61,455 bases of DNA from Anaerolineales bacterium. Lineage in GTDB: Bacteria > Chloroflexota > Anaerolineae > Anaerolineales > UBA6663. Below the pieces are notes generated by a model. It was not told the DNA's origin, searched no databases, and saw only the letters and a list, made by a program, of their open reading frames with translations. How positions within the stretch are numbered: position 1 is the first letter of the stretch; each line of letters begins with the position of its first letter. Below, one piece after another: positions 102 to 8,405 of the stretch. The DNA is taken from assembly GCA_020845955.1 (NCBI GenBank), contig JADLEU010000283.1, forward strand, positions 1 through 61,455, in the 5' to 3' direction. Position numbers and translations under genes: made by a program.

Positions 102-401
102 TTATCCGTCGTCGGCCGGATTGTAATGCTCCAGGCGTTCGCAGGCCCCCGGGTCAACCATCATCATTTGCTCCTGGAGCGTCAGCTCGACCGCGCGCCG
201 CAGCGCCATGCCATGCATCGCATGAACCTCAGCGGCGGGCGCGAAGGACAGGGGCGGCAGGCTCAAGACATCGATCGTGGGACCAAACAGTGATTGGCCG
301 CTGGGGCCTCCCATCTGCCCAACGGCCACCCCGCAGGCCGTCACCAGCAACCCCGCCACCATTCCGAGCGCGAGCAGCAAGGCCAACCGGTGTTTTCGCA
401 T
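102..401 (-). CDS. Small predicted lipoprotein, unknown function
   Basis: This encodes 99 residues. The N-terminus is a type II signal peptide: MRKHR, a hydrophobic stretch, then the lipobox VTAC with the lipidated Cys near residue 23. The mature part is short (about 75 residues), with no recognisable domain and a Met-rich patch (QEQMMMV) near the end. The start is set by AAGGAG seven to eight bases upstream; an upstream in-frame ATG would put about 38 charged residues before the signal peptide and is unlikely. It probably sits on the outer face of the cytoplasmic membrane. No function can be assigned, and the neighbouring PLP-enzyme gene is separated by about 80 bases. Confidence 0.7.
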   Translation of the reverse strand: MRKHRLALLLALGMVAGLLVTACGVAVGQMGGPSGQSLFGPTIDVLSLPPLSFAPAAEVHAMHGMALRRAVELTLQEQMMMVDPGACERLEHYNPADDG

Positions 402-483: not shown

Positions 484-1728
484 CTATTGCGCCAGGGCCT
501 GCTCCAGATCCGCAATCAGGTCCGCGGCATCTTCAATCCCAAGCGACAGCCGCACCAGGTTATCCTTGATGCCCAACGCCAGCCGCTCCTCGGTCGAAAG
601 CTCGTAAAACGACATCAACGCCGGCTGTTCCACCAGCGTCTCCACGCCGCCCAGCGAGGCCGCAATCAGTGGGATCGTCAGCGCGTCGACGAAGCGGCTG
701 GTATCTTCCAAACCACCGTCGATTTCAAAGCTGACGACGCCGCCGTATCCCAGCATCTGGCTCCGCGCCACGGCGTGATCGGGATGCGAGGCCAGTCCCG
801 GGTACCACACGCGCCTCACGCGTGGGTGCGCCTCGAGATAGGCCGCCACCGCCTGGCCATTCTCGTTCTGCCGCTGCACTCGCAGCGCCAGCGTCTTCAA
901 GCCGCGCGTCAGCAGCGCCGCCGTGTGCGGGTCGGTCACGCTTCCCAGCACCCCTAGAGCCTGCCGCAGCGAGTCGATCAGCCCGGCCTCGCCCACCACG
1001 ACGCCCGCCAGCAGATCGTTGTGGCCGCCCAGGTACTTGGTGGCCGAATGCACGACCAAATCGACCCCAAAGTCCAGTGGCCGCTGGTTGATGGGCGTGG
1101 CAAAGGTCGCATCAATCAGCGTCTTCACGCCGTGCCGGCGCGCGATCTCCACCAGCCGCACCAAATCGAGGCAGCGCAAATAGGGGTTGGTCGGAGTCTC
1201 GGAGACGATCAGGCGGGTGTTGGGCTGGATGGCCGCTTCGAGCGCGGCCCAATCGCCCATTGGGACGACCGTGGTTGCAATGCCCAGGCGTTTGAGGAAG
1301 GTCTGGCAAAACTGGCGCGTGCGGCGGTAACAGTCGTCGCCGATGACGAGGTGCGCGCCGGTGGGCAGCATCGCCAGCAGCACCGACGTGACGGCTGCCA
1401 TGCCCGAGGCAAACAAGAGCGCCGCGTCGCCGCGCTCCAGCGCCGCCAGCCGGGCCTCGCAGTCGGCTACCGTCGGGTTGCCGTAGCGGCCGTACTCAAC
1501 CCGCCCTTGAGCCCCACCCCACATCCGCGCGTCCTGAAAGGCGCACAGATCAGCCGTATTGTCAAAGGTATACGTGGCCGTCTGAACGAGGGGCGCTATT
1601 AGCGAATGGTAGGCGTGCGGGTGAGTTGTACCGGCGTGCACCGCGGCCGTCGATGGGCCCGGCGCGGGCGGAGCCGCCGGTACCGCCGCCACTTTAGTCT
1701 TATCAGCTAGGATCTGTAGGGCCGTCAT
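484..1728 (-). CDS. Cys/Met-metabolism PLP-dependent enzyme (cystathionine gamma-synthase-like)
   Basis: 414-residue enzyme of the trans-sulfuration family (cystathionine gamma-synthase, O-acylhomoserine sulfhydrylase, gamma-lyase). Visible family motifs are YGRYGNPT near the N-terminus, FASGMAA for cofactor phosphate binding, ETPTNPYL, the Asp of LIDATFA, and SATKYLGGHND holding the Lys that forms the PLP Schiff base. The first 35 or so residues are an Ala/Pro-rich extension. AAGGAG lies five bases before this ATG; the ATG at 1731 and a codon at 1746 are poorer starts. A SAM-I riboswitch and terminator lie directly upstream, which places the enzyme in methionine or homocysteine synthesis rather than catabolism. 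Which sulfur donor it uses cannot be read from the sequence. Confidence 0.9.
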   Translation of the reverse strand: MTALQILADKTKVAAVPAAPPAPGPSTAAVHAGTTHPHAYHSLIAPLVQTATYTFDNTADLCAFQDARMWGGAQGRVEYGRYGNPTVADCEARLAALERGDAALLFASGMAAVTSVLLAMLPTGAHLVIGDDCYRRTRQFCQTFLKRLGIATTVVPMGDWAALEAAIQPNTRLIVSETPTNPYLRCLDLVRLVEIARRHGVKTLIDATFATPINQRPLDFGVDLVVHSATKYLGGHNDLLAGVVVGEAGLIDSLRQALGVLGSVTDPHTAALLTRGLKTLALRVQRQNENGQAVAAYLEAHPRVRRVWYPGLASHPDHAVARSQMLGYGGVVSFEIDGGLEDTSRFVDALTIPLIAASLGGVETLVEQPALMSFYELSTEERLALGIKDNLVRLSLGIEDAADLIADLEQALAQ

Positions 1729-1789
1729 CATCTCTCCTTCACACACACGGACAGCTTATCCAGGAGAGACCAGAGGGGTTTACCGCTGC

Positions 1790-2580: not shown

Positions 2581-3443
2581 GCGTCGGCATCCAGCGGCGC
2601 CTGGCCGATCAGCCGGTCAGCGACCGCTAGCGCATATTGAACAAAGAGGAGCGCGCTTTGGAGGTCATCCCGGTCGGCCGGCTGCCCGACCCGCTGCCAC
2701 TGCCCGGCGTGCCTCTCCCAGGCCCGGTCGATCAATCCCTGCCAGCGGCCGTCGAGCTCCGCCTTGGCCCACCGGGCCCCAGCCAACTTCGAGTGTACGC
2801 GTCCGGTGACCAAGGTCTGGAGCATACGGCTGAAGCTGAGCACCGCGTAGGGCTGGTACCAGCCGTCGTTCATTGTCTCTGGCGCGGCCAGGATCTCGGC
2901 CGCCCAGCCGCGCAGCGTTCCCAGCGTCTCTCGCCGCAACGCCTCGGCTGGCACTGGCCCCAGCAACTCCCGCGGCTCCGGCCCGGCGAGGGTCACGCCC
3001 TGCTCGCGCAGCACCCAGCGCACCACCAGCGTGTTGTCGTGTGCGGAGCGCTCGAGTTCCCGGCTGCCGTTATCGACGTACAGCAGCGGCTTTCCCACCG
3101 TATCGAGGTCGCGCAGCCACTCGCGCGGAAAGTACGAGCCTTCGAGATGTCGCGCCCAGTTCGATGCCATGCCGTACACCTTCACGTGCTCCGCCTGGAG
3201 AGGCAGCACCCAGGCTGCCGGCACGTCCTCGCTCACCACGATCACAAAATCGACGTCGCTGTCGGTGGTTGCATCGCCCACCGCGAAGGAGCCCTGCAGA
3301 TAAGCGCCTACGAAGTTAGCGCCCAGAATCGGCCGCACTCCCGCAAGCAGCGCCTGGAGCACGCCAGCCAACTCGGGCTGAGCCGCACTCGCCTTCGCTG
3401 GCACGACCGGGCGCGGCCGCATGTCACGCGTCTCCGCCCACAT
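2577..3443 (-). CDS. Nucleotidyltransferase, aminoglycoside adenylyltransferase-like (DUF4111)
   Basis: 288 residues. The nucleotidyltransferase signature is GSFAVGDATTDSDVD near residues 50-65, with the two metal-binding Asp residues in DSDVD. The helical C-terminal half matches the DUF4111 region found in AadA-type adenylyltransferases, including WVLREQGVTLAGPEP and a later YAVLSFSRML. Such enzymes transfer AMP to small hydroxyl acceptors, classically streptomycin or spectinomycin, but chromosomal members often have unknown targets. The start overlaps the upstream esterase by 20 bases and the stop overlaps the acetyltransferase start by four. Confidence 0.8.
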   Translation of the reverse strand: MWAETRDMRPRPVVPAKASAAQPELAGVLQALLAGVRPILGANFVGAYLQGSFAVGDATTDSDVDFVIVVSEDVPAAWVLPLQAEHVKVYGMASNWARHLEGSYFPREWLRDLDTVGKPLLYVDNGSRELERSAHDNTLVVRWVLREQGVTLAGPEPRELLGPVPAEALRRETLGTLRGWAAEILAAPETMNDGWYQPYAVLSFSRMLQTLVTGRVHSKLAGARWAKAELDGRWQGLIDRAWERHAGQWQRVGQPADRDDLQSALLFVQYALAVADRLIGQAPLDADA

Positions 3444-4062
3444 GTTGAGCCAGCCATTTCTTCAGATCACGCGTGCCATCCGCGTTAAGTTTGTGCCCGA
3501 CCGGGTACTCCCGATAGGTGACCTCGGCGCCGGCCCTGATCAGCAGCTGCCGCGCGGCCTGTGCCTGATCGACCGAAACGGCCTCGTCCTGCGCACCGTG
3601 CAGAATTAGCGCGGCTTTGCCCGCCAACCGCCCTGGCTTGGCCCAGCCCTGGGCAAATTCAGGCACAAATCCCGCCAGTCCGACGGCGCCCGCCGCCAGG
3701 GCCGGGTCTGACAGCAACAGCCCGAAGCTCATCGCCGCTCCTTGGCTGAAACCCATCAGCCACAACCGTTCCCGGTCCACCGGGTAAGCCCTGGGCAGCC
3801 CAGTCACAAACTCCCGCAGCGCCGCCAGCCCTGCCCGAAAGCCCTCCCCGTCGTCCAGGCGCCGATACCAGCCGAAACTGTGCGGCCCTACCTCGAGTGG
3901 TGCGCGTGGGCTCACCGACACTACCCCCAGCGGCAGGGTCTGGTCAAAAATACTCATGACCTCCTCGTTGCCCAGCCATCCATGCAGCATGACGACCGCC
4001 GGGTACAGTTCAGCGCTCGCCTTGCCCGGCACCCGCGCCCGGTGGACCAGCGGCAACGCCAT
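3424..4062 (-). CDS. Phospholipase/carboxylesterase-family alpha/beta hydrolase
   Basis: 212-residue hydrolase. The catalytic triad is visible as the Ser of GFSQG, the Asp of HGAQDEAV and the His of VGHKL; HGWLGNE near the N-terminus forms the oxyanion hole. Size and motif order match the carboxylesterase / acyl-protein thioesterase family. The start ATG shares one base with the stop of asd (TAATG). Longer in-frame starts lie inside asd and give an Arg/Gly-rich shadow sequence, so they are rejected. There is no signal peptide, so it is cytosolic. Substrate unknown. Confidence 0.85.
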   Translation of the reverse strand: MALPLVHRARVPGKASAELYPAVVMLHGWLGNEEVMSIFDQTLPLGVVSVSPRAPLEVGPHSFGWYRRLDDGEGFRAGLAALREFVTGLPRAYPVDRERLWLMGFSQGAAMSFGLLLSDPALAAGAVGLAGFVPEFAQGWAKPGRLAGKAALILHGAQDEAVSVDQAQAARQLLIRAGAEVTYREYPVGHKLNADGTRDLKKWLAQHVGGDA

Positions 4063-5111
4063 TACTGCACCAATCCCTGCGCCACCAGGAGTTCGCCGTT
4101 CAGCAGCGAGCCGCCTGCCGCACCATGCACGGTGTTGTGTGAGAGGACGACGAACTTGACGTGGAACAGCGGATCGGTCCGAACCCGGCCGACGACGGTC
4201 GTCATCCCCGCGCCCGCCAGGCGGTCCTTGCGCGGCTGCGGGCGGTCTGGCTCGGAACGCACTTCGATCACCTGGCGCGGAGCGCTGGGCAGCGTCCGCA
4301 CCATCTCGGGCGCCTCGAACCCTGCCAGGCACTCGGCGACTTCCTTCGGTCCCGCCGCCCGCTCAAACTCCACCGAGGCGCATACCATGTGCCCGTCCGA
4401 CACCGCCACCCGGTTGGTGTGAGCCGAGAACACGACAGGCGCCGGCCTCACCGCCCCGGCATGCAGCGTCCCTAGCATCTTGCGCGGCTCCTGCTCGATC
4501 TTTTCTTCCTCTCCCGGAATGTAAGGCACCACATTGTCGAGGATGTCCAGCGAGGCCACACCCGGGTACCCGGCGCCCGACAGTGCCTGCAGCGATACCA
4601 CCATTGCCCGCCGCAACCCAAAGGCCGGCTGCAAGGCCTTCAGCGCAATCGTCAGCCCGGTGCTGGTGCAGTTGGGATTGGTCAGGATGAAGCCCGGCCA
4701 GCCGCGGGCGGCGCGCTGGTGGGCGATCAGGCCGGTATGATCGGGGTTCACCTCGGGGATGATCAGCGGCACGTCGGGCGCCATGCGAAAGGCTGACGCG
4801 TTCGACGACACCGCGTAGCCGGCGGCGGCCAGGGCCGGCTCGACCGCCCGCGCGGCCTCGGCCGGCAGCGCCGAAAATGCCAACCGGGCCTCAAAGCCCG
4901 GCTCGGTCGGCAGCACCAGCATGCCGCGCGCGTAGTCCGGCATCGGTTCGGCCAGCACCCAGCGGCAGCCATCGCCATACTGCTGCCCAACGGTCCGATC
5001 CGAGCCGGTCAGGGCCGTGACCTCGAACCAGGGATGCGCTTCTAATAGCTGCACGAAGCGCTGCCCCACCGCCCCCGTTGCGCCCAGGATCGCCACCGGT
5101 ATCTTCGTCAT
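4062..5111 (-). CDS. asd: Aspartate-semialdehyde dehydrogenase
   Basis: 349 residues. It makes L-aspartate 4-semialdehyde from aspartyl phosphate using NADPH, the branch point to lysine, threonine and methionine. Visible are the Rossmann motif GATGAVGQRF at the N-terminus, the nucleophile Cys in TNPNCTS and the acid/base His in AHTNRVAV. The sequence is of the archaeal/fungal-like type rather than the E. coli type, judged by length and the KLGGNP-free dimer region. It follows lysC after nine bases, so the product of aspartate kinase is handed to the next enzyme of the same operon. Confidence 0.95.
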   Translation of the reverse strand: MTKIPVAILGATGAVGQRFVQLLEAHPWFEVTALTGSDRTVGQQYGDGCRWVLAEPMPDYARGMLVLPTEPGFEARLAFSALPAEAARAVEPALAAAGYAVSSNASAFRMAPDVPLIIPEVNPDHTGLIAHQRAARGWPGFILTNPNCTSTGLTIALKALQPAFGLRRAMVVSLQALSGAGYPGVASLDILDNVVPYIPGEEEKIEQEPRKMLGTLHAGAVRPAPVVFSAHTNRVAVSDGHMVCASVEFERAAGPKEVAECLAGFEAPEMVRTLPSAPRQVIEVRSEPDRPQPRKDRLAGAGMTTVVGRVRTDPLFHVKFVVLSHNTVHGAAGGSLLNGELLVAQGLVQ

Positions 5112-6530: not shown

Positions 6531-6566
6531 TCTGACCTCCCATCGGCAGCGCTGCCTGCCGGGACA

Positions 6567-6597
6567 ACAAAAACGCGGAGCCGCTCTGGCTCCGCGT
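6567..6597 (-). terminator. Attenuator terminator in the lysC leader
   Basis: On the minus strand ACGCGGAGCC pairs perfectly with GGCTCCGCGT around an AGAGC loop and is followed by TTTTTGTTGT. It lies between the Thr-rich leader ORF and lysC. The 5' arm can instead pair with leader bases 6628-6637 (GCTTGCGCGT, nine pairs with one bulged G), which would form an antiterminator. Confidence 0.85.
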
Positions 6598-6622
6598 TTG
6601 GGTCGCTCGATTCAGGCACCCA

Positions 6623-6703
6623 CTACCACGCGCAAGCGGCGGCCTCCCAACCGGTAGGCGCAGTCTGCATGGTAGTAGTCGTGGTGCCAGCGTTCGGATA
6701 CAT
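6623..6703 (-). CDS. Threonine-rich leader peptide of the lysC operon
   Basis: A 26-codon ORF with seven Thr codons, five of them consecutive (codons 7-11: ACC ACG ACT ACT ACC), then MQTAPTGW and a TAG stop. Its last codons lie exactly in the segment that can pair with the 5' arm of the terminator. A ribosome stalled at the Thr run would leave that antiterminator segment free; a ribosome that reaches the stop would cover it and let the terminator form. This is the thr-operon attenuation logic. There is no Shine-Dalgarno sequence, but the predicted transcription start is only about four bases upstream, so it may be read as a near-leaderless message. A GTG at 6715 would add MTPT. Confidence 0.8.
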   Translation of the reverse strand: MYPNAGTTTTTMQTAPTGWEAAACAW

Positions 6704-6713
6704 CGTAGGCGTC

Positions 6714-6743
6714 ACGTTAGCACAACCCCGCCGCCGTTGTCAA
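6714..6743 (-). promoter_or_regulatory. Promoter of the lysC leader
   Basis: On the minus strand there is a perfect -35 TTGACA (complement of 6738-6743), an 18-base spacer and a -10 TAACGT (complement of 6714-6719). Transcription would begin near 6707, just before the leader-peptide ATG. Confidence 0.6.
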
Positions 6744-6794: not shown

Positions 6795-8405
6795 CTAACC
6801 CTTGGCGCCGGGCGGCCTCTTCTTCTTCCCGGGCGGGTTCAGCATCTTGCGCACCTTCAACGCCAGGTGCACCGCCAGGCGCGTATCGGGGTTATTCATG
6901 TCTAGGCCCGCAATCTGCGAGATGCGCTCCATCCGATAGAGCAGCGAATTGCGGTGAATAAACAGCTTCTCCGCGGTCTGGCTAAGGTTCCCCAGTCGTT
7001 CGCAGAACGCCTCGAGGGTTTCCAGCAGGTCGCCGCCGCCCTCATATTGCAGCAGCGTCCCCAGCGCCTCCCGGCAAAAGGCCTCCAGCTCGGGGTTGCC
7101 TTCCAATTGAAACAACAGTCGGTACACCGACAGGTCGCCGAAGTACAAAGGCTTCTGCTCATGCAGCCGGGCCGCCATCGACACCGCCTGCGACGCCTCG
7201 CGGTACGAGTCCTTCCAATCTGGCAGTTCGGCCGCGGCCCGGCCGACACCGCCGTAGGCGTCGACCTGCGGGTACTCAGAGGCAGCCGCTTTCCGGATAG
7301 CCTGCGCCAGCGAGATCGCCGCCTCGGGCCGGTCCAATGCCGCCACGCTGCAGAACACCACCACCTCGCCGCCCCGCGGGCGGACCAGCGCGCTGACGCC
7401 TTGCTGCACCACCGACTGATTGACGAGGGTTTCCAGCCGACGCAGGCTGGGCGCCTCAGGCGTCGCCGCCCAACGCCAGACCAGCGCCACGTGTGGGGCG
7501 TCCGGCACGATGCCGATGCGCTGCGCCCAGCGCACCAACTCGTCGGTGGGCACGCTGCCCGTCAGCACGGCGTCGATAAAGTCGCCGTGGGCGCGTTTCT
7601 CGGCGTCGCTGACCGCCTTGGCCTTAGCCATCTCCAGCGCGCAGGCCGCAGCGCCGAATTCCACCACCAGTTGATCCAGCGCGTCCAGCTCGCCGGTTGG
7701 GCCAACCACCGAAAGATAGCCGCGCGCCATGCCCTGCGCCACAATCGGGCACACTAACCGTATCAGTCCGCCCGGCAGCGATTGGTCGCGCATGCCGGCC
7801 ATCGAGGCGGCCTGGCGCCGATCGCGCAACCCCTCGGGCAGTTGGCTGAACGAGCTCAGCGCGTCCAGCACAGCGGGCCATGCGTGGCTCATCGCCGGGG
7901 CCACGGCCTGAGCGAGGGACTTGAGGCGCTTATCCTGCACCACGACCGTTTTGCCGGTCAGGTCGAACATGGCCCGCGCCAGGCCTTCCAGCCCGGCGCC
8001 TTCCAAGACGCGCTGCATCAGAGTCTGCGACACCAGCGCGCCGCGCTCCATCAAGTACGATTGCCGGTTGACGATCAGCTCCAGGGCAGCGCGCTGGATG
8101 TCGCGCAGTGAGGCGCCTTCGGGCAGCACCACAGTCGCCACCGGCGCCGCCGCCGGAGCCGCCCCCCCGTCGGCGAGCACGGCCAGCCCTGCGATTCCTT
8201 TCGCCGCCCAGGCGGCCAACTCGCGCCGGCTGGGCACGCTGCCACACAACACGAAGTCGCCCTCCGCGGGCGTGACGCCGGCGCCAGCCATGACCACCCA
8301 GTTGACGACCTGATCGCGCGCCAGGTCCGCCGGCGCCTGGGTGCCGGTCGGAAAAGCGAGCCGCAGCAGCTCGCTCAGGGAAACTTCAGTCGTCGTTGTC
8401 GGCAC
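6795..8405 (-). CDS. PucR/CdaR-family transcriptional regulator
   Basis: 536-residue regulator. The C-terminal PucR-type helix-turn-helix is clear: NLSQTAEKLFIHRNSLLYRMERI followed by the NNPDTRLAVHLALKV helix, at about residues 470-520. Upstream is a GGDEF-like CdaR domain (YGGVGRAAAELPDWKDSYREA) and an N-terminal purine-catabolism/PucR-like region. Family members respond to small metabolites and usually activate nearby or distant catabolic genes. The start is a GTG; the nearest purine-rich stretch (GGGA) lies about eight bases upstream and is weak. The nearest genes, lysC and a chloride channel, give no obvious target. Confidence 0.85.
   Translation of the reverse strand: MPTTTTEVSLSELLRLAFPTGTQAPADLARDQVVNWVVMAGAGVTPAEGDFVLCGSVPSRRELAAWAAKGIAGLAVLADGGAAPAAAPVATVVLPEGASLRDIQRAALELIVNRQSYLMERGALVSQTLMQRVLEGAGLEGLARAMFDLTGKTVVVQDKRLKSLAQAVAPAMSHAWPAVLDALSSFSQLPEGLRDRRQAASMAGMRDQSLPGGLIRLVCPIVAQGMARGYLSVVGPTGELDALDQLVVEFGAAACALEMAKAKAVSDAEKRAHGDFIDAVLTGSVPTDELVRWAQRIGIVPDAPHVALVWRWAATPEAPSLRRLETLVNQSVVQQGVSALVRPRGGEVVVFCSVAALDRPEAAISLAQAIRKAAASEYPQVDAYGGVGRAAAELPDWKDSYREASQAVSMAARLHEQKPLYFGDLSVYRLLFQLEGNPELEAFCREALGTLLQYEGGGDLLETLEAFCERLGNLSQTAEKLFIHRNSLLYRMERISQIAGLDMNNPDTRLAVHLALKVRKMLNPPGKKKRPPGAKG

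Follow-up and report, generated by a model that had tools for sequence, protein, structure and literature searches.

How is lysC, the aspartate kinase gene of an Anaerolineales genome, controlled, and does the short intergenic region in front of it encode a sensor of threonine? The window analysed here, a stretch of 61,455 nucleotides, carries this region on the minus strand, between lysC and a gene for a PucR/CdaR-like regulator (6795-8405). The initial annotation had proposed a ribosome-mediated attenuator that responds to threonine, and this is the best-supported reading of the locus. The enzyme encoded downstream is, as had been stated, a monofunctional aspartate kinase, the predicted protein consisting of the kinase only. 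It probably shares one operon with asd, which follows lysC in most relatives tested. A search with the window's LysC returned this gene as the sole LysC-like match in the genome, and the homoserine dehydrogenase gene was found on a different contig. Past lysC-asd in the direction of transcription, and on their strand, a SAM riboswitch (RF00162, 78.6 bits; 1845-1988) sits about 100 nt 5' of an ORF for a trans-sulfuration-type PLP enzyme (484-1746, minus strand), and the methionine synthesis of this genome would thus have a riboswitch of its own.

The components of the leader region are listed in Table 1. The promoter had been called a consensus promoter, a description that fits the -35 box in full but is generous for the -10 box, even with its extended TGn motif. 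The short ORF was confirmed, with seven Thr codons among its 26, five of them consecutive, followed by the stop codon. The terminator AAACGCGGAGCC-AGAGC-GGCTCCGCGTTT (6599-6571) begins 23 nt beyond that stop; the hairpin and T run reported earlier are both there, and the perfect, GC-rich stem is 12 bp long instead of the 10 bp first given. The antiterminator formed by GCTTGCGCGT and ACGCGGAGC contains the nine pairs that had been proposed, with one bulged G. A third helix appears in the minimum free energy (MFE) fold, where the region of the Thr codons (GGCACCACGACTACTACCATGCA) is joined to TGCGCGTGGTAGTGGGTGCC by base pairs that span the stop codon. None of 200 shuffled sequences was as stable as this fold (z = -3.65), which comprises the terminator and the long hairpin between the Thr codons and the leader end; beside the antiterminator, these two allow three competing helices to be drawn in the manner of a textbook attenuator. 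For the window's leader alone, the 1:2 duplex was significant against shuffles (z = -2.5), and the energy of the 2:3 antiterminator duplex was not better than that of shuffles (z = +0.7), so that the antiterminator rests on comparative evidence.

Table 1. Features of the lysC leader region and of leaders before other operons. Positions are those of the window unless a contig or relative is named.
Feature	Position	Strand	Basis
lysC, monofunctional aspartate kinase, 469 aa	5121-6530	-	TIGR00657, 405 bits (cut-off 208.7)
asd, aspartate-semialdehyde dehydrogenase, beginning 9 nt beyond lysC	4062-5111	-	TIGR00978, over cut-off
-35 box, TTGACA	6738-6743	-	6/6 consensus match; sequence and promoter scan
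-10 box, TAACGT, extended TGn (TGC), 18-nt spacer	6714-6719	-	3/6 match to TATAAT; position relative to ATG kept in relatives
Predicted transcription start, about 4 nt 5' of leader ATG (near-leaderless)	6707	-	Predicted from -10 spacing
Leader peptide ORF MYPNAGTTTTTMQTAPTGWEAAACAW, 26 codons and stop, ATG at 6703	6623-6703	-	Sequence; homologous leaders in relatives
Five consecutive Thr codons (ACC ACG ACT ACT ACC), putative sensing codons	6671-6685	-	Sequence; Thr/Met enrichment
Met codon directly after Thr run	6668-6670	-	Sequence
Segment 1 (Thr codons) of 1:2 hairpin	6666-6688	-	MFE fold; group duplex z
Segment 2, partner of segment 1 across stop codon	6615-6634	-	MFE fold; in most relatives, stop codon within segment 2 or at it
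Antiterminator 5' half, GCTTGCGCGT	6628-6637	-	GCCGNNGCTTCG motif kept in two frames; covariation of the corresponding helix in a different clade
Segment 3, terminator 5' arm / antiterminator 3' half	6588-6599	-	Sequence, fold, stem covariation in relatives
Segment 4, terminator 3' arm (loop at 6583-6587)	6571-6582	-	Sequence, fold, stem covariation in relatives
T run of intrinsic terminator, overlapping A-T end of stem	6566-6573	-	Sequence
Phe/Tyr leader (L337)	contig C56, 25146-25289	-	R1 match
Leader with His run, MSAPRCAHAQHHHHHDRYGWFGLG, and terminator, upstream of hisS (L332)	relative G001, 145-219	+	
Branched-chain leader (L247)	contig C205, about 2707-2811	-	Similar leaders in most relatives examined

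For comparison, LysC relatives from the same family, order and phylum were gathered, together with named MAGs taken from the GTDB species genomes; among the named relatives, Anaerolineales bacterium SJ819 is nearest, its LysC being 75% identical. A scripted caller for Thr-rich leaders with a terminator before lysC returned 59 non-redundant leaders, and since these were picked for Thr richness, their Thr enrichment is in itself no independent evidence. Sampling of the order and class covered 110 lysC loci, of which 48, spread over 11 family-level groups, have the leader; none was detected at the other 62, some families being entirely without it. The families nearest to this genome all carry it (f1 5/5, f2 3/3, f3 1/1, f4 4/4), as do all members of f10, f23 and f24 and 17 of the 18 in f11; it occurs in part of f5, f14 and f15 and in none of f8, f12, f13 and f16. 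The arrangement, which had seemed unusual in its genomic setting, is instead common in the order and also present elsewhere in the class, in further orders. Beyond the class, all 20 lysC loci examined lacked a Thr leader, as did the 43 hom and thrC loci of the relatives, and plasmids gave no match to the leader region. At 20 loci of leader-less relatives, neither a lysine riboswitch nor a T-box was found, the sole match being RNase P at one locus (L031). In two f14 genomes (G065 and G089), lysC itself lacks the leader, and a Thr leader precedes a PLP aminotransferase gene on the lysC strand, some 4 kb upstream, a placement that suggests a tie between the element and the head of the operon.

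In relatives with a LysC 55-75% identical, the leader's position, spacing, codons and pairings are conserved. As the initial annotation had predicted for such a comparison, the Thr run, the stop codon, the terminator and the alternative pairing persist while the rest of the peptide drifts. The Thr codons vary synonymously among relatives (ACC, ACT, ACG and ACA), which points to translation of the leader. Within the f1/f3/f4 group, the antiterminator 5' half GCCGNNGCTTCG lies in frame 0 in f1, giving AAAS-type peptide tails, and in frame 2 in f3, f4 and the leader L099, giving QPLL-type tails; being kept in two reading frames, the motif indicates that selection acts on the RNA, and the peptide offers no explanation for it. 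In f11, the antiterminator CCG(T/C)GAGGC : GCCTC(A/G)CGG covaries at one pair (UA in 10 sequences, CG in 3, UG in 1), and the same terminator-arm column also covaries with the terminator 3' arm (AU in 9, GC in 4). Such three-strand covariation is as expected if both helices matter; in each helix it is seen at a single column pair, most other pairs hardly varying at all and hence being uninformative. In 51 of 56 leaders, the partner of the 1:2 helix overlaps with that of the 2:3 helix. The mean duplex z-scores of the two helices (-1.43 and -1.59, respectively) overstate independence because the sequences share ancestry.

Switching was modelled by folding the RNA available just after segment 3 is made, for 56 related leaders and with kinetics ignored. 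Averaged over these leaders, the probability that the terminator 5' arm is sequestered was 0.72 with the ribosome on the Thr cluster, 0.57 with it placed earlier and 0.25 with it at the stop codon, and 0.44 for RNA free of ribosomes; the corresponding values for the window's own leader were 0.69, 0.15, 0.34 and 0.36. The stall-minus-free switch amounted to 0.264, against 0.025 +/- 0.026 after shuffling the region from the stall site to the terminator, a difference in which the effect size matters more than nominal significance, given a model without kinetics and leaders that are related.

Starting from the anatomy, the conservation, the covariation at one position and the modelled switching that the computation yields, we consider it very probable that the locus is a classical ribosome-mediated transcription attenuator, with lysC-asd governed by charged threonyl-tRNA and, in many relatives, plausibly by methionyl-tRNA as well. 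Transcription would start about 4 nt 5' of the leader ATG, so that a ribosome could begin at once. When threonine is plentiful, the ribosome would reach the stop codon and mask segment 2, segments 3 and 4 would pair and transcription would terminate before lysC. When threonine is short, the ribosome would stall in the Thr run and mask segment 1, leaving segment 2 to pair with segment 3; no terminator would then form, and lysC-asd would be transcribed. Without translation, the 1:2 hairpin would form and termination would be the default. The actual start site, the translation of the leader, the direction and amplitude of the regulation and the amino acid or acids sensed are what we infer from this arrangement. 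The comparison argues strongly for a real and functional system, and its mechanism would be an ordinary one. A threonine sensor, perhaps one for threonine and methionine, would thereby control the sole aspartate kinase that was detected in this genome.

This last point concerns a refinement of the attenuation mechanism towards which we lean, in which the leader would sense threonine and methionine jointly and stalling at either codon would relieve termination. Met accounts for 84 of the 308 non-Thr codons in or next to the Thr cluster, compared with 35 of 856 elsewhere (odds ratio 8.8; p about 1e-26 with ancestry ignored), and Met was not used for selecting the leaders. It is the only non-Thr residue enriched at the cluster, Lys and Ile not being so, and its share is 7.4% in frame versus 1.2% and 0.2% in the other two frames. 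At least two Met codons per cluster occur in seven groups (f1, f4, f5, f10, f11, f23 and f24), with clusters such as TTTTMMTTM, MMTTTMMTMT and MTMTMTMTTT. Threonine and methionine are both made from homoserine, downstream of LysC, and with the branch point there, a sensor of both on lysC would be sensible; hom and thrC of the relatives are without such a leader. Against joint sensing, the window's leader has just a single Met next to its Thr run, Met is missing from the clusters of f2, f3 and much of f14, and RNA pairing or use as an internal start could be what favours ATG. With a single adjacent Met, threonine sensing is the firm part for this organism. If joint sensing is true, the lysC leader would be the first known to us that senses threonine and methionine together.

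Other explanations of the same region fare much worse than ribosome-mediated attenuation. Leader peptides close to a gene can raise its translation (PMC4833913), and the main action could accordingly be sought in translational coupling or reinitiation onto lysC, or in Rho, instead of in intrinsic termination; we regard this as very unlikely, since the distance from the leader stop to lysC, 92 nt in the window and 74-167 nt in close relatives, is too great for simple coupling, and since a strong intrinsic terminator is present with a matched antiterminator. A ligand-binding riboswitch or a T-box would also present a structured 5' region with a terminator, and the window does hold the SAM riboswitch described above, but no Rfam riboswitch or T-box matched the leader site, and the in-frame Thr run with its synonymous variation, the fixed stop codon and the drift of the peptide elsewhere make an untranslated sensor extremely improbable. 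As for a fortuitous Thr-rich ORF beside an ordinary intergenic terminator, with no regulation at all, ORFs with at least five Thr in eight codons do arise by chance at about 0.5 per window (46 in 100 first-order Markov copies of the 61-kb window), but none of the 46 had a terminator within 100 nt downstream or a correctly placed promoter of the same quality, and the conservation described above in effect refutes this reading. A screen of the real window for single-residue-rich leaders with promoter and terminator returned the lysC locus only.

The attenuator geometry is also constrained among the relatives. The stop codon lies 20-38 nt (median 29) before the terminator 5' arm in 55 of 56 leaders, and where the promoter is good (43 leaders), 6-15 nt (median 10) separate the -10 box from the start codon. 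Only 3 of 59 leaders are preceded by a Shine-Dalgarno-like motif, which is absent in the other 56. A TA-like signal about 10 nt 5' of the start codon has been described as an in-silico mark of leaderless genes in bacteria, Chloroflexi included (PMC3160421). The -10 spacing and the missing Shine-Dalgarno motif together predict a near-leaderless start, in agreement with the initial annotation, and the placement of the ATG close to the -10 box is kept in relatives. In the f2 leaders (L022, L032 and L033) the -10 box lies farther upstream, and leaderless initiation would therefore be common and not obligatory.

The closest known counterpart is the enterobacterial thr operon leader (thrL, RF00506), which likewise combines a Thr-codon run in a short leader peptide, a stop codon, competing 1:2, 2:3 and 3:4 hairpins and an intrinsic terminator before the first aspartate-pathway gene. 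It differs in controlling the bifunctional thrA with thrB and thrC, whereas the lysC leader precedes a monofunctional lysC with asd, has a predicted near-leaderless ATG lacking a Shine-Dalgarno motif and, in its relatives, has Met as the companion codon where thrL has Ile. The RF00506 Thr_leader model aligned over its full length to the locus with 17.6 bits (E = 0.54), below the gathering cut-off of 55. The lysC leader would work like the thr operon attenuator yet lies outside that family. Mycobacterial poly-Cys attenuators (Canestrari et al. 2020, as described in PMC9031893 and PMC13236596) appear from these accounts to resemble the predicted form of the lysC leader in having a leaderless sORF with a run of one codon as the amino-acid sensor upstream of a biosynthetic operon, and to differ in amino acid, gene and phylum. 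A 2005 actinobacterial survey found no conserved terminator hairpin at the poly-Cys sORFs (PMC1262725), whereas the lysC leader has a strong terminator and an antiterminator. The same general mechanism operates outside Proteobacteria in the actinobacterial ilvB, trp and leuS attenuators (PMC1262725) and in ilvBNC of C. glutamicum (PMC11857589), although the phylum differs and the actinobacterial set includes no reported threonine or lysC attenuator (PMC1262725).

Proteobacteria and Actinobacteria are the groups from which amino-acid leader attenuators have been described, other phyla having contributed few (PMC2965389), and the surveys of 2005 and 2010 (PMC1262725, PMC2965389) mention neither Chloroflexota nor a lysC leader. 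The open-access literature yielded no earlier attenuator from Chloroflexi/Chloroflexota, no Thr/Met leader and no lysC leader, an absence that is weak evidence. As far as this literature shows, the phylum and the combination of features would be new, among them a predicted near-leaderless start coupled with intrinsic-terminator attenuation, while attenuation itself is classical.

The lysC leader also has counterparts before other operons, which would place a whole set of attenuators in Chloroflexota, an under-studied and mostly uncultured phylum. A covariance model (R1) was built from the f1/f3/f4 leaders, and it scored the window locus, one of its training sequences, at 106.5 bits. Full-length R1 matches of 29-68 bits were found before other operons, with Phe/Tyr-rich leaders preceding AroH chorismate mutase and DAHP synthase, and with a His-run leader preceding hisS. 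Since matches to the terminator alone reach 15-28 bits, the remainder of the R1 score comes from the leader part; partial matches in this range on opposite strands reflect the terminator palindrome, and one candidate (L327) that looked terminator-only was discarded. The window's own genome has a Phe/Tyr leader, MRSKTAFYFYAFYFYGRRSGVAVACV, with a terminator before an AroH-type chorismate mutase gene (45.7 bits), and a branched-chain leader, MTTSLLVVLIVVLIGVLVENPFPVGLATVRIRHK, with a terminator before ilvD in an ilvD-ilvB region. The Phe/Tyr and His leaders of Anaerolineae have the same terminator and antiterminator chassis as the lysC leader, and the ilvD leader shares with it only the general anatomy; all of them differ from it in their sensing codons and genes (aroH/DAHP synthase, hisS, ilvD).

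We tentatively propose that a single modular chassis may have been inherited within Anaerolineae, its sensing codons being swapped between operons (Thr and Met for lysC, Phe/Tyr for aroH/DAHP synthase, His for hisS). Its traits could include a near-leaderless start, a fixed stop-to-terminator spacing, a common GCTTCG antiterminator and a GCGGAGCC terminator. Because ACTACTACC read one frame over becomes TAC-TAC (Tyr), some sensor swaps may stem from frame shifts. Shared ancestry combined with an exchange of the sensing codons is an attractive account, and convergence under the same RNA constraints may be the alternative. With one RNA chassis carrying different codon sensors, this natural series makes the evolution of attenuator specificity directly testable. 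Beyond this phylum, two aspartate kinase genes of Bacteroidota (L171 and L175) are preceded by Thr/Ile-rich short ORFs, for example MQRNFSHIIFTAIVIITITTTITG.
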